From assembly GCF_019890615.1 (NCBI RefSeq), contig NZ_JAINVZ010000014.1, positions 124,001 to 188,000 of the forward strand: a stretch of 64,000 nt of DNA. Direction: 5' to 3'. This document shows positions 3,029 through 32,247 of this stretch, piece by piece (within the stretch, counting starts at the first letter, position 1; every line of letters begins with the position of its first letter). The notes under the pieces are model-generated. The model ran no database searches. It saw only the letters and a list, made by a program, of their open reading frames with translations, and was not told the DNA's origin. The position numbers were made by a program, and so were the translations under genes. Source of the stretch: Streptantibioticus parmotrematis. GTDB taxonomy: Bacteria; Actinomycetota; Actinomycetes; Streptomycetales; Streptomycetaceae.

Positions 3029-3193
3029 GCCGCCTCCCTATACGGGCAAAACGCCCAGAAGTGCCGCGGTTCTTCCCGCGTCACGATGTTCTCTGCAGCC
3101 TCGGCACGCCCGGCGCCTCGGCACGTCTGTGTCGGTGTCCTGCCGGCCTACGCGGGGCGGGCGCCGCAGCGGGCGCGCCGGGCCGCGTGGTCG

Positions 3194-30930: not shown

Positions 30931-31077
30931 GGCGGGGGCGCCTGGGGGGCGTGCGCGGGGACGCGTTGGCACCAGGGGGGCTTCTAGGCGGCTCCGAGGC
31001 GGCTCCTGCGCCGGGGCCGGGGTTGTTGTGCCCGAAATGCGTGTCAGTGACAAGGATTCGCCCGTGGCGGCTCCTGG

Positions 31078-31107
31078 TTGACCCTGCGGCGAAGCCCGTG
31101 GTTCACT
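31078..31107 (+). promoter_or_regulatory. Candidate promoter of a leaderless Cys-leader transcript
   Basis: TTGACC (31078-31083), an 18-bp spacer, then TTCACT (31102-31107). The predicted start of transcription falls at or within one base of the GTG at 31115, so the message would be leaderless, consistent with the absence of a ribosome-binding site. Confidence 0.5.
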
Positions 31108-31114
31108 CCGAAAC

Positions 31115-31201
31115 GTGACCGGCACCGAACTGCGCCTCGTGCGGAGGGTCCACCTGGACCTCGTCCGCTACGCGGGCTGCGTGTGTCGTCCGTCCTGTTG
31201 A
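31115..31201 (+). CDS. Putative Cys-rich regulatory leader peptide upstream of cysteine dioxygenase
   Basis: A 28-codon open frame from GTG 31115 to TGA 31201. The C-terminal half reads RRVHLDLVRYAGCVCRPSC, the RRxHxDLxR form of actinobacterial leader peptides found before sulfur-metabolism genes. Three cysteine codons fall in the last seven positions. No Shine-Dalgarno sequence precedes it. Known precedent: polycysteine leaderless short ORFs in mycobacteria act as cysteine-responsive attenuators. A hairpin follows 25 bp after the stop. Inferred role: ribosome stalling at low Cys-tRNA alters expression of the downstream gene. Confidence 0.75.
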   Translation: MTGTELRLVRRVHLDLVRYAGCVCRPSC

Positions 31202-31226
31202 TGCGCCAGTTCTCCTGAACCCTTGC

Positions 31227-31246
31227 CGCGCGGTCTCTGCCGCGCG
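31227..31246 (+). promoter_or_regulatory. Candidate attenuator hairpin between leader peptide and cysteine dioxygenase
   Basis: CGCGCGG (31227-31233), loop TCTCTG, CCGCGCG (31240-31246), followed by CTTT. It sits between the leader stop and the likely TTG start at 31274. It could be a terminator or could sequester the downstream initiation region. Confidence 0.5.
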
Positions 31247-31273
31247 CTTTCGCGATCACCGGGACGGTCCCCC

Positions 31274-31822
31274 TTGCCGCACACTCTTTCCGCGTCCGCG
31301 CAGTCGTCCGGGCAGAAGTCCACGCCCTCGTCCGCGCCGACCGTCGACGAACTCCTCGACTTCGCCCGCCGCGCCGCCGCCGACCCCGACGTCGTCGGCC
31401 GGCTGCCGCTCGATCCCGAGGGCCGTACCTGGCTGCGGCTGGAGGGTCCCGGCGGCAGCGAGGCCTGGCTCATCGGCTGGCCTCCGGGGGCCGAGACGGG
31501 CTGGCACGACCACGGCGGCTCCCGCGGCGCGTTCGTCACCGCCGCGGGCGAACTCGCCGAGCAGTCCGTCTCCGTACCGCTGCCCGGCGCGGGCTGGCTC
31601 TCCCTCGAACTCGCCACCGACGTCGACCGCGTCCGCAGCCTCCCGCCCGGCCAGGGCCGCGCCTTCGGCCCGCACCACGTCCACCAGGTCGTCAACGCCT
31701 CCGACGACCATCACGCGATCTCGGTCCACGCCTACTACCCGCCCCTCCCCCTGATGCGCCGCTACAGCAGGCGCGGCCAGGTCCTGCGCCTCGAACTCGT
31801 CGAACGCCCGGAGGAGTGGTGA
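31274..31822 (+). CDS. Cysteine dioxygenase-family cupin protein
   Basis: Oxidises L-cysteine (or a related thiol) to the sulfinate with non-haem iron. 182 residues from the TTG at 31274. An alternative TTG at 31223 would place the attenuator hairpin inside the gene and is less likely. Iron ligands are visible as HDH in GWHDHGGSRGAF and His in GPHHVHQV. The HAYYPPLP near the C-terminus holds the conserved Tyr. It is preceded by a Cys-rich leader peptide and overlaps the rhodanese gene by 4 bp. Together they suggest catabolism of surplus cysteine and handling of its sulfur. Confidence 0.88.
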   Translation: MPHTLSASAQSSGQKSTPSSAPTVDELLDFARRAAADPDVVGRLPLDPEGRTWLRLEGPGGSEAWLIGWPPGAETGWHDHGGSRGAFVTAAGELAEQSVSVPLPGAGWLSLELATDVDRVRSLPPGQGRAFGPHHVHQVVNASDDHHAISVHAYYPPLPLMRRYSRRGQVLRLELVERPEEW

Positions 31823-32247
31823 GCCTCCCCCGCCCCCACGGCATCGACGAACTGCTGGCCCGGGCTCGCGAGGGCCTGACCCGCCTGACGGCACATCAGG
31901 CACAGGCCGCCGCCGCGAAGGGCGCCCTGCTGGTCGACATCCGCTACGCGGCCCTGCGGGACCGTGACGGCACGATCCCCGGCGCCCTGGTCGTCGAACG
32001 CAACGAGCTGGAATGGCGTCTCGACCCGCAATGCCCGCACCGCCTCCCCGAGGCGGTGGACCACGACATCACGCCCATCGTCATCTGCAACGAGGGCTAC
32101 GCCTCAAGCCTCGCGGCGGTCTCCCTCCAGGCACTCGGCCTGCACCGGGCCACCGACCTCGCTGGCGGCTTCCAGTCCTGGCGCGCGGCGGGCCTCCCCG
32201 TCACCGCACCGAGCGAGCTCCGAGGCGAAGTTCACGGAGGCAGCTGA
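31819..32247 (+). CDS. Rhodanese-like sulfurtransferase
   Basis: 142 residues, single rhodanese domain. LLVDIRYAALRDRDGTIPGA is the N-terminal rhodanese signature, the active-site loop is ICNEGYASS with the persulfide-carrying Cys, and GGFQSWRAAGLPV ends the domain. GTG start overlaps the cysteine dioxygenase stop (GTGA); GGAGGA lies only 3 bp before it, and a GTG one codon upstream is also possible. Co-transcription with cysteine dioxygenase suggests sulfane-sulfur transfer to or from products of cysteine oxidation. Convergent with recX. Confidence 0.9.
   Translation: MSLPRPHGIDELLARAREGLTRLTAHQAQAAAAKGALLVDIRYAALRDRDGTIPGALVVERNELEWRLDPQCPHRLPEAVDHDITPIVICNEGYASSLAAVSLQALGLHRATDLAGGFQSWRAAGLPVTAPSELRGEVHGGS

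Follow-up and report, generated by a model that had tools for sequence, protein, structure and literature searches.

A conserved cysteine-codon leader as a candidate translational switch of a cysteine dioxygenase–rhodanese operon in Streptantibioticus parmotrematis

Amino-acid leader peptides are textbook devices of biosynthetic operons. A leader also precedes the amino-acid-degrading tryptophanase operon, where TnaC carries conserved tunnel residues ahead of its stall site and acts through free tryptophan and Rho-dependent termination. For cysteine, two reports describe mycobacterial polycysteine leaders for cysA2, Rv0485 and nirA (PMC4633059) and their action by translation attenuation (PMC13236596). 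Here, a stretch of 64,000 nucleotides from Streptantibioticus parmotrematis was analysed (contig NZ_JAINVZ010000014.1, positions 124,001 to 188,000 of the forward strand, referred to as the window), in which a 28-codon leader frame with three cysteine codons precedes a cysteine dioxygenase (CDO)–rhodanese operon. Comparison with related loci brings out a strongly conserved leader with the marks of a translated frame, a leader end that in most relatives is complementary to the CDO ribosome-binding site, a covarying hairpin and an invariant UGU at Cys24. We lean, if only slightly, towards reading the leader as a cis-acting translational switch whose sign matches that of the cysteine leaders of mycobacteria, with a band-pass response. 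The speed at which the ribosome passes the leader cysteine codons would then probably decide CDO synthesis.

Like the mycobacterial leaders (cysA2/Msmeg_5788, Rv0485 and nirA; see also PMC9031893 and PMC9094748), the frame is a short open reading frame (ORF), putatively of the leaderless type, that ends in cysteine codons upstream of sulfur genes. It differs in that the gene under putative control degrades cysteine, in the long invariant core preceding the cysteine codons, and in a single UGU sensor with flanking cysteines in place of a run of cysteines. Of 296 class genomes, 21 contain the core in its strict DNA pattern: 21 of the 28 from the own family and 0 of the 268 others. The same kind of RRxHxDLxR core is found in NF042934 (cis_reg_atten), a model that covers leaders of different genes and names neither target nor mechanism. 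The likeness to TnaC lies in the position before an amino-acid-degrading operon and in the conserved residues; Rho termination and free tryptophan are described for TnaC. Searches of the open-licence literature turned up no report of a cysteine dioxygenase preceded by a leader. As far as that literature shows, four things are new: CDO as the target, the fact that this recurs with several leader types, the UGU rule, and a named anti-Shine–Dalgarno sequence positioned relative to three cysteine codons.

The leader frame and the operon behind it

In a scan of a genome contig collection 160 relatives were confirmed, and the best 80 of these serve as the CDO loci compared; they belong to Streptomyces, Streptantibioticus, Actinacidiphila and one metagenome-assembled genome. 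Counts over 80 leaders comprise the window and 79 loci, the leader-less L050 being excluded; counts over 71 comprise the window and 70 loci, nine loci whose leaders end in TAAR or TTAR being set apart. As the loci share ancestry, the counts are not independent. The features of the locus are as follows.

31078–31083, + strand: −35 element TTGACC of the leader promoter
31102–31107, + strand: likely −10 element TTCACT, transcript start predicted at or beside the GTG
31115–31201, + strand: leader peptide gene of 28 codons, MTGTELRLVRRVHLDLVRYAGCVCRPSC, GTG start and TGA stop, from ORF reading, NF042934 and conservation
31142–31168, + strand: RRVHLDLVR core motif; codons CGG and GTC in 80/80, rare AGG in 72/80 leaders
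31178–31180, + strand: Cys22 codon UGC (Cys in 79/80), where a waiting ribosome leaves the anti-Shine–Dalgarno sequence exposed in the folding model
31184–31186, + strand: Cys24 codon, putative sensor, a rare UGU (TGT in 80/80)
31190–31197, + strand: anti-Shine–Dalgarno (anti-SD) sequence CCGTCCTG within codons P26-S27-C28, predicted 8-bp helix with 31260–31267
31227–31246, + strand: inner local hairpin, from folding and covariation
31260–31267, + strand: Shine–Dalgarno (SD) region of CDO, CGGGACGG; GGACGG at most 100 nt from the leader stop in 71/80 loci
31274–31822, + strand: cysteine dioxygenase (CDO_I, PF05995), TTG start, from Pfam match and conserved GGACGG spacing
31819–32247, + strand: rhodanese (Rhodanese, PF00581), start overlapping the CDO stop (GTGA), with GTG 31816 as the start in the ORF list

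A leader was found 5′ of CDO in 79 of the 80 loci, 57 of them by a first pattern and 22 of the remaining 23 by a wider search. L050, the sole leader-less CDO–rhodanese locus, adjoins a gene that by eye resembles an ABC substrate-binding protein. An earlier note on this DNA had proposed a 28-codon cysteine frame with an RRxHxDLxR signature, and this frame proves to be real. With cysteines at codons 22, 24 and 28, the peptide scores barely above the cut-off of NCBIfam NF042934, "putative leader peptide" (28 bits against 27, E 1.1e-6; residues 6–24 on positions 1–19 of the 19-position profile); in a six-frame genome search with the same model it scored 26.5 bits, just below the cut-off. Against NF042933 (Ms5788A family Cys-rich leader) it remained below threshold, with 19.6 bits at a cut-off of 45. 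The 80 aligned leaders all have the same amino acid at eight positions of the core (R, V, H, D, L, R, G and Cys24), which excludes chance and leaves 8 of 15 core codons invariant at the amino-acid level. Departures from the commonest codon amount to 110 synonymous and 89 non-synonymous in the core, 75 of the 89 at three free positions, and to 65 synonymous and 200 non-synonymous in the eight codons 5′ of the core. With the leader present in 79 of the 80 loci, the 28-codon frame is under selection, and by this substitution pattern the selection is purifying in the core.

Leaders were aligned for conservation of their cysteine codons, a check suggested in the same note. Next to the fixed Cys24, the Cys22 codon is TGC in 74 leaders, TGT in 5 and a tyrosine codon in one, and the last leader codon encodes cysteine in 61/71. 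UGU is read by wobble, and TGT makes up 13 of 133 cysteine codons in 35 ORFs of the window. For comparison, SseA, SiR and CDO2 loci (CDO2 being the second CDO paralogue) were taken, 30 each, as the best from 41 genomes searched; L164 (SseA) and L172 and L184 (SiR) gave no pattern match and were counted as misses. By script, 28 of 29 SseA leaders have a cysteine at the aligned place, the remaining one having been misplaced by the script. This aligned cysteine is TGT in 28/28 SseA and 28/28 SiR leaders, while their other cysteines are nearly all TGC and the gene bodies of these loci use TGC for 68 of 68. As UGU is fixed at the aligned cysteine though rare elsewhere, it appears to mark the sensor position in the CDO, SseA and SiR leaders. 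The core codons point to a further nucleotide-level constraint: the preferred AGG accounts for 1.8% of arginine codons in gene bodies and for 76 of 1512 in the window ORFs, and CAT encodes the core histidine in 66/80 leaders as compared to 4% in gene bodies. Within the leader, CGGAGGGTCCAYNTG (31142–31156) resembles an SD sequence followed by a start-like NTG codon. Over the 80 leaders, the SD-like part reads CGGAGGG in 72 and CGGAAGG in 6, and the NTG position ATG in 40, CTG in 31, GTG in 5, TTG in 1 and CTC in 3; an internal start, a pause site or another RNA constraint are candidate roles.

The promoter, which the note had placed so as to give a leaderless transcript, fits by position. TTGAC lies 36–37 nt 5′ of the leader start codon in 79/80 leaders, compared to 0/80 in a control region farther 5′, and at −16 to −6 the 80 leaders show conservation of a sequence resembling TGGTNTACTCC. 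A generic sigma-70 promoter scan returned no match for the leader promoter, and conservation was used in its place. From the TTGAC spacing, the transcript is predicted to begin at or near the leader GTG or ATG and is likely leaderless.

Both genes of the proposed CDO–rhodanese operon were matched by their Pfam families. The dioxygenase scores 132.9 bits against PF05995; its HDH (HxH) residues and one arginine, which we take to be the substrate arginine, align in five homologues, and its activity is predicted. The nearest solved relatives, 8qfr and 8qfl, carry the name cysteine dioxygenase. A rhodanese gene lies 3′ of CDO in 79 of the 80 loci. Among the 71 loci the start codon follows GGACGG after 5–7 nt (GTG 63, TTG 5, ATG 3), and TTG 31274, located 6 nt past this conserved element with a spacing kept in relatives, is most likely the CDO start. 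A longer CDO ORF from 31223 found no support.

Pairing of the leader end with the CDO ribosome-binding site

The leader codons CCG-TCC-TGY hold CCGUCCUG, the complement of CAGGACGG, and the GGACGG of the latter lies 5′ of the CDO start. In the window, CCGUCCUG at 31190–31197 is predicted to pair with CGGGACGG at 31260–31267, flanked by UGAU (31199–31202) paired with AUCA (31255–31258). For the 119-nt leader–CDO piece, the fold has an energy of −47.4 kcal/mol (z −2.87), equalled by 0 of 200 shuffles. Over the 71 loci, eight potential anti-SD/SD pairs are found in 53, seven in 14, six in 3 and five in 1. Pairing probabilities were calculated for the four core bases of the CDO site against the leader end (last 21 nt including the stop, plus 3 nt), and the ribosome was modelled as a mask over the leader up to its leading edge. 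Without a ribosome the mean probability is 0.92, exceeding 0.5 in 67/71 loci. Masking results in means of 0.89 with the ribosome at Cys22, 0.05 at Cys24 (above 0.5 in 0/71) and 0.00 at the stop. The Cys22 result is stable for leading edges of 12–16 nt and weaker at 17–18 nt (0.65 and 0.50). The energy needed to open the site is 9.2 kcal/mol for the free RNA, 8.6 for Cys22, 4.1 for Cys24 and 4.3 for the stop; the difference between Cys22 and Cys24 exceeds 1 kcal/mol in 61/71 loci.

A fixed synonymous swap of CCGTCC lowered the leader-end pairing to 0.26 (59 loci). Random synonymous recoding of the last eight leader codons, with codon frequencies taken from the locus data in the case of Arg, Pro, Ser and His and set to values assumed for high-G+C genomes for the others, gave a mean of 0.53, and 558 of 1065 recodings still exceeded 0.5. 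The native sequence outperformed 15/15 recodings in 28/71 loci and at least 13/15 in 58/71, a contrast weaker than hoped. As negative controls, 29 SseA leaders gave a leader-end pairing of 0.03 and 29 CDO2 leaders 0.13; opening by at least 2 kcal/mol at the sensor position was observed in 0/29 and 5/29, respectively. The ribosome-binding sites of the SseA, CDO2 and TAAR/TTAR loci were picked by a script rule. The same anti-SD mechanism was rejected for SseA and CDO2 in view of these controls.

The 7-bp hairpin that the note had placed between leader and CDO (31228–31234 with 31239–31245; nine pairs including an extension) is real and covaries in relatives. Still, a larger structure encloses it, and it is not the switch by itself. 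For the covariation analysis, the 71 sequences were dereplicated to 64 and L049, L062 and L065 removed for long or odd gaps, leaving 61. The pair count was made on a structure named by us, for which RNAalifold, run on this same alignment, supplied the hairpin columns. The inner hairpin is 93.4% paired with double changes in 5 of 6 pairs and is, on this comparative evidence, well supported. In the anti-SD helix, 95.5% is paired. The whole structure holds 24 double-change cells, as compared to 5.7 in shuffles and 1–12 in slid versions. Support for the anti-SD helix comes from complementarity, single-sequence ensembles, the pair count, its invariance, the fixed CCG and TCC codons (61/71 and 67/71, next to an arginine codon that varies freely), and L057, where the frame is shortened and lacks the last cysteine yet CCGTCCTGA is kept. 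Rfam returned no match at gathering thresholds for the leader–CDO locus.

The loci set apart above comprise a TAAR subtype (L028, L030, L031, L032, L036, L040, L043 and L051) and one TTAR locus (L037). Several of these carry a GCGCGC-UGA-GCGCGC palindrome spanning the stop, a different RNA design for the same gene.

Sign of the response and competing explanations

According to the folding predictions, the CDO site would be closed by CCGUCCUG pairing when no ribosome is near the leader end, and would remain closed with a ribosome at Cys22. A ribosome with Cys24 in the A site, or at the stop, would cover CCGUCCUG and loosen the CDO site. Scarcity of charged tRNA-Cys would then prolong the dwell on Cys24 and Cys28 and increase CDO–rhodanese translation, while under extreme starvation Cys22 would seldom be passed and CDO would be off, giving a band-pass response. 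In a stochastic model with assumed rates, the wild-type site was open for 21% of the time at full charging, 55–66% at 10–1% charging and 13% at 0.01%; without Cys22, open time climbed to 97% and stayed there. Taken together, anatomy and kinetic model predict CDO to be on at moderate and off at extreme cysteine shortage. CDO would then be part of a general cysteine-leader regulon and no exception with reversed logic.

Published expression data bear on this sign. In Streptomyces coelicolor, SCO5772 is presumably located near recA, and we take SCO3035 to be the second CDO. PMC4991794 reports that 0.15 mM H2O2 raised SCO5772 8.0-fold and SCO3035, labelled hypothetical in the H2O2 table, 6.5-fold, with ssuCBA-cysNDCHI, SCO4164–4165 and SCO2910–2912 also increased. 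In PMC3087709, SCO5772 is called a "putative cysteine dioxygenase". The genes just listed as raised by H2O2 are 16 of the 28 that PMC4991794 counts as up-regulated, and by gene name they were assigned to operons whose counterparts in this genome have a cysteine leader. The earlier note had expected a reversed or different logic for a cysteine-destroying enzyme; a reversal finds no support, as in the predicted anatomy a ribosome at Cys24 opens the site, the model turns CDO on under moderate limitation and, in the one data set found to list both, SCO5772 rose with biosynthetic genes.

Several points weigh against a switch of this kind. With Cys24 occupied, the CDO site is unpaired with a mean probability of only 0.22 (above 0.5 in 1/71 loci), and of 0.26 at the stop. 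The site being mostly paired elsewhere, the ribosome lowers a barrier rather than baring the site. Covariation in the anti-SD helix is thin, with a double change in one of eight pairs (U-A to C-G, in two loci), 18/71 loci have lost one to three of the eight pairs, most of them without compensation, and RNAalifold on the 61-sequence alignment preferred the inner hairpin together with a short helix at the 5′ end, not the anti-SD helix. The lack of pairing in SseA and CDO2 leaders indicates that the mechanism is not common to the whole set. Moreover, the nine TAAR/TTAR leaders of the 80 lack the GGACGG/anti-SD arrangement, and simple folding of the eight with a CDO start found (L028, where none was found, being left out) revealed no ribosome-dependent opening. 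On the physiological side, cysteine destruction during shortage makes little metabolic sense. The H2O2 response was lost in an hbpS-senS-senR mutant and is credited to HbpS-SenS-SenR by the authors (PMC4991794); it need not run through leaders. PMC3087709 has nitrogen starvation, via GlnR, raising the SCO5772-type gene in Streptomyces venezuelae, and PMC7181669 has cdo1 and cdo2 increased 50.2-fold and 8.3-fold in another Streptomyces grown on feather. Feather is rich in cysteine, and these data may fit induction by cysteine equally well. Given such mixed published data, feather included, the same-sign reading is slightly favoured and held at somewhat better than even, with a cysteine-liganded arrest peptide as its main rival.

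That rival resembles TnaC: RRVHxDLxRYAGCVC in the exit tunnel would sense free cysteine and, when this is abundant, stall the ribosome near Cys24 or the stop and cover the anti-SD, so that CDO is turned on by its substrate. We consider it unlikely, albeit in better standing than the other alternatives. The fixation of the eight core residues, with His, Tyr and Leu codons varying synonymously, is what an arrest peptide would lead one to expect, a ribosome halted at Cys24 or at the stop for whatever reason would loosen the site, and substrate induction is metabolically sensible and agrees with the rise of the cdo genes on feather (PMC7181669). However, cores of the same kind head biosynthetic genes, which cysteine ought not to induce, the invariant UGU suggests decoding, and the CDO2 leader keeps cysteine codons and little else, which points to codon reading. 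The joint rise of SCO5772 with biosynthetic genes (PMC4991794) likewise speaks against arrest.

Transcriptional attenuation or Rho-dependent polarity in place of initiation control is decidedly improbable. The published changes are at the RNA level (PMC7181669 and PMC4991794), and by eye the segment after the stop is pyrimidine-rich in many loci. Still, a consensus scan for a terminator hairpin with a U-run between leader and CDO found no intrinsic-terminator-like site in 31201–31274, its sole match (31000–31019) lying upstream of the leader, and the pairing strikes the ribosome-binding site in 67/71 loci. Little credence is given to plain translational coupling, by which any ribosome translating the leader would loosen the site, CDO would track leader initiation and the cysteine codons would be minor. 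A ribosome at the stop does abolish the pairing and the model has the site open for 21% of the time without limitation, but coupling leaves unexplained the conservation of Cys22 (79/80) and of UGU at Cys24 (80/80) as well as the polycysteine leaders of CDO2 and another family. Least probable of all is a sign reversed by geometry, with starved ribosomes waiting at Cys22, the anti-SD exposed and CDO on only when cysteine is plentiful: Cys22 is present in 79/80 leaders and a ribosome there keeps the site closed, but the later Cys24 and Cys28 open it for equal or longer waits, the model is off only at extreme limitation, and a cysteine is found at the equivalent place in 13/29 SseA leaders. As a simple sign inverter, Cys22 was ruled out by the kinetic model under its assumed rates.

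Other cysteine leaders and the wider regulon

The link between cysteine leaders and CDO drawn in the earlier note extends beyond this locus, since other leader types precede the CDO2 paralogue and CDO genes of another family. In the own genome, the second CDO paralogue (L107/L111; G000:C10:144473-144877, minus strand) has a polycysteine leader, MSVTHAPTGTRLSATRAAAVPDHDLFLRRCCRGCCR, with RRCCRGCCR and TGT for all four cysteines. Leaders with 3–8 cysteines within the last 16 codons, located by a Cys-rich pattern, were found at 29 of the 30 CDO2 loci from the 41 family genomes, with TGT 97 vs. TGC 39. L125, a short locus and probably a contig end, has none. The rest of the CDO2 leader peptide is poorly conserved. 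Upstream of 90 loci, frames with at least four cysteines in the last 16 codons numbered 31 of 2660, with 25 on the CDO2 coding strand and 6 elsewhere.

In another actinobacterial family (f4), a short frame, in most cases with ECCRG as its ending, was found at 16 of 25 CDO loci; the cysteine codons of this ending are TGT in 31/32 vs. 9/49 elsewhere in the same loci. The ECCRG-type frames, with UGU-UGU (L258, L260-L272, L274 and L275), lie mostly 200–310 nt 5′ of the CDO match. The L251 leader, GLHVDLVHVAGGSCGCCCHCLD, is of a GGSCGCCCHC type. In several of these f4 loci the leader again pairs with the CDO site, through the codons ahead of the motif in the ECCRG type; examples are L266 (CCCAGGAGUGU with ACAUUCCUGGG) and L251 (GGUUCCU with AGGAACC). 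In others the best helix is short. Among 30 CDO loci of a further family (f17), six were flagged by a loose cysteine rule; they share no motif and were judged unconvincing.

Kindred leaders in the own genome (L001, L002, L006, L008, L009 and L010, of which L008-L010 fall below the NF042934 cut-off) head genes of other kinds. Their Pfam targets are an FMN reductase, an arylsulfotransferase, an ABC permease, a GST-like protein and a 2OG-Fe(II) oxygenase, and by eye one of these leaders precedes an amino-acid-type ABC permease. From such targets, the regulon looks wider than cysteine synthesis. Apart from this system, an nrdJ RNA (RF03034) was found at 3050–3126 of the window on the minus strand with 43.3 bits, above the gathering score.

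In summary, several unlike cysteine leaders here precede an enzyme that destroys cysteine, and for one leader type it can be stated which bases would pair, which codon would act as sensor and where the ribosome would sit. This leads to the question of whether slow reading of cysteine codons switches breakdown on or off, and whether the rare UGU codon is the sensor. Only tentatively do we suggest that actinobacterial cysteine breakdown might at large be placed under several unlike leader types (RRVHxDLxRYAGCVC, polycysteine, ECCRG and GGSCGCCCHC). In that event the Streptomyces type would be either a band-pass device, on under moderate limitation or oxidation and off in true starvation, or a cysteine-binding arrest peptide that induces catabolism. 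If right, the proposed switch may explain why SCO5772 tracks the cysteine-assimilation genes in published Streptomyces data.

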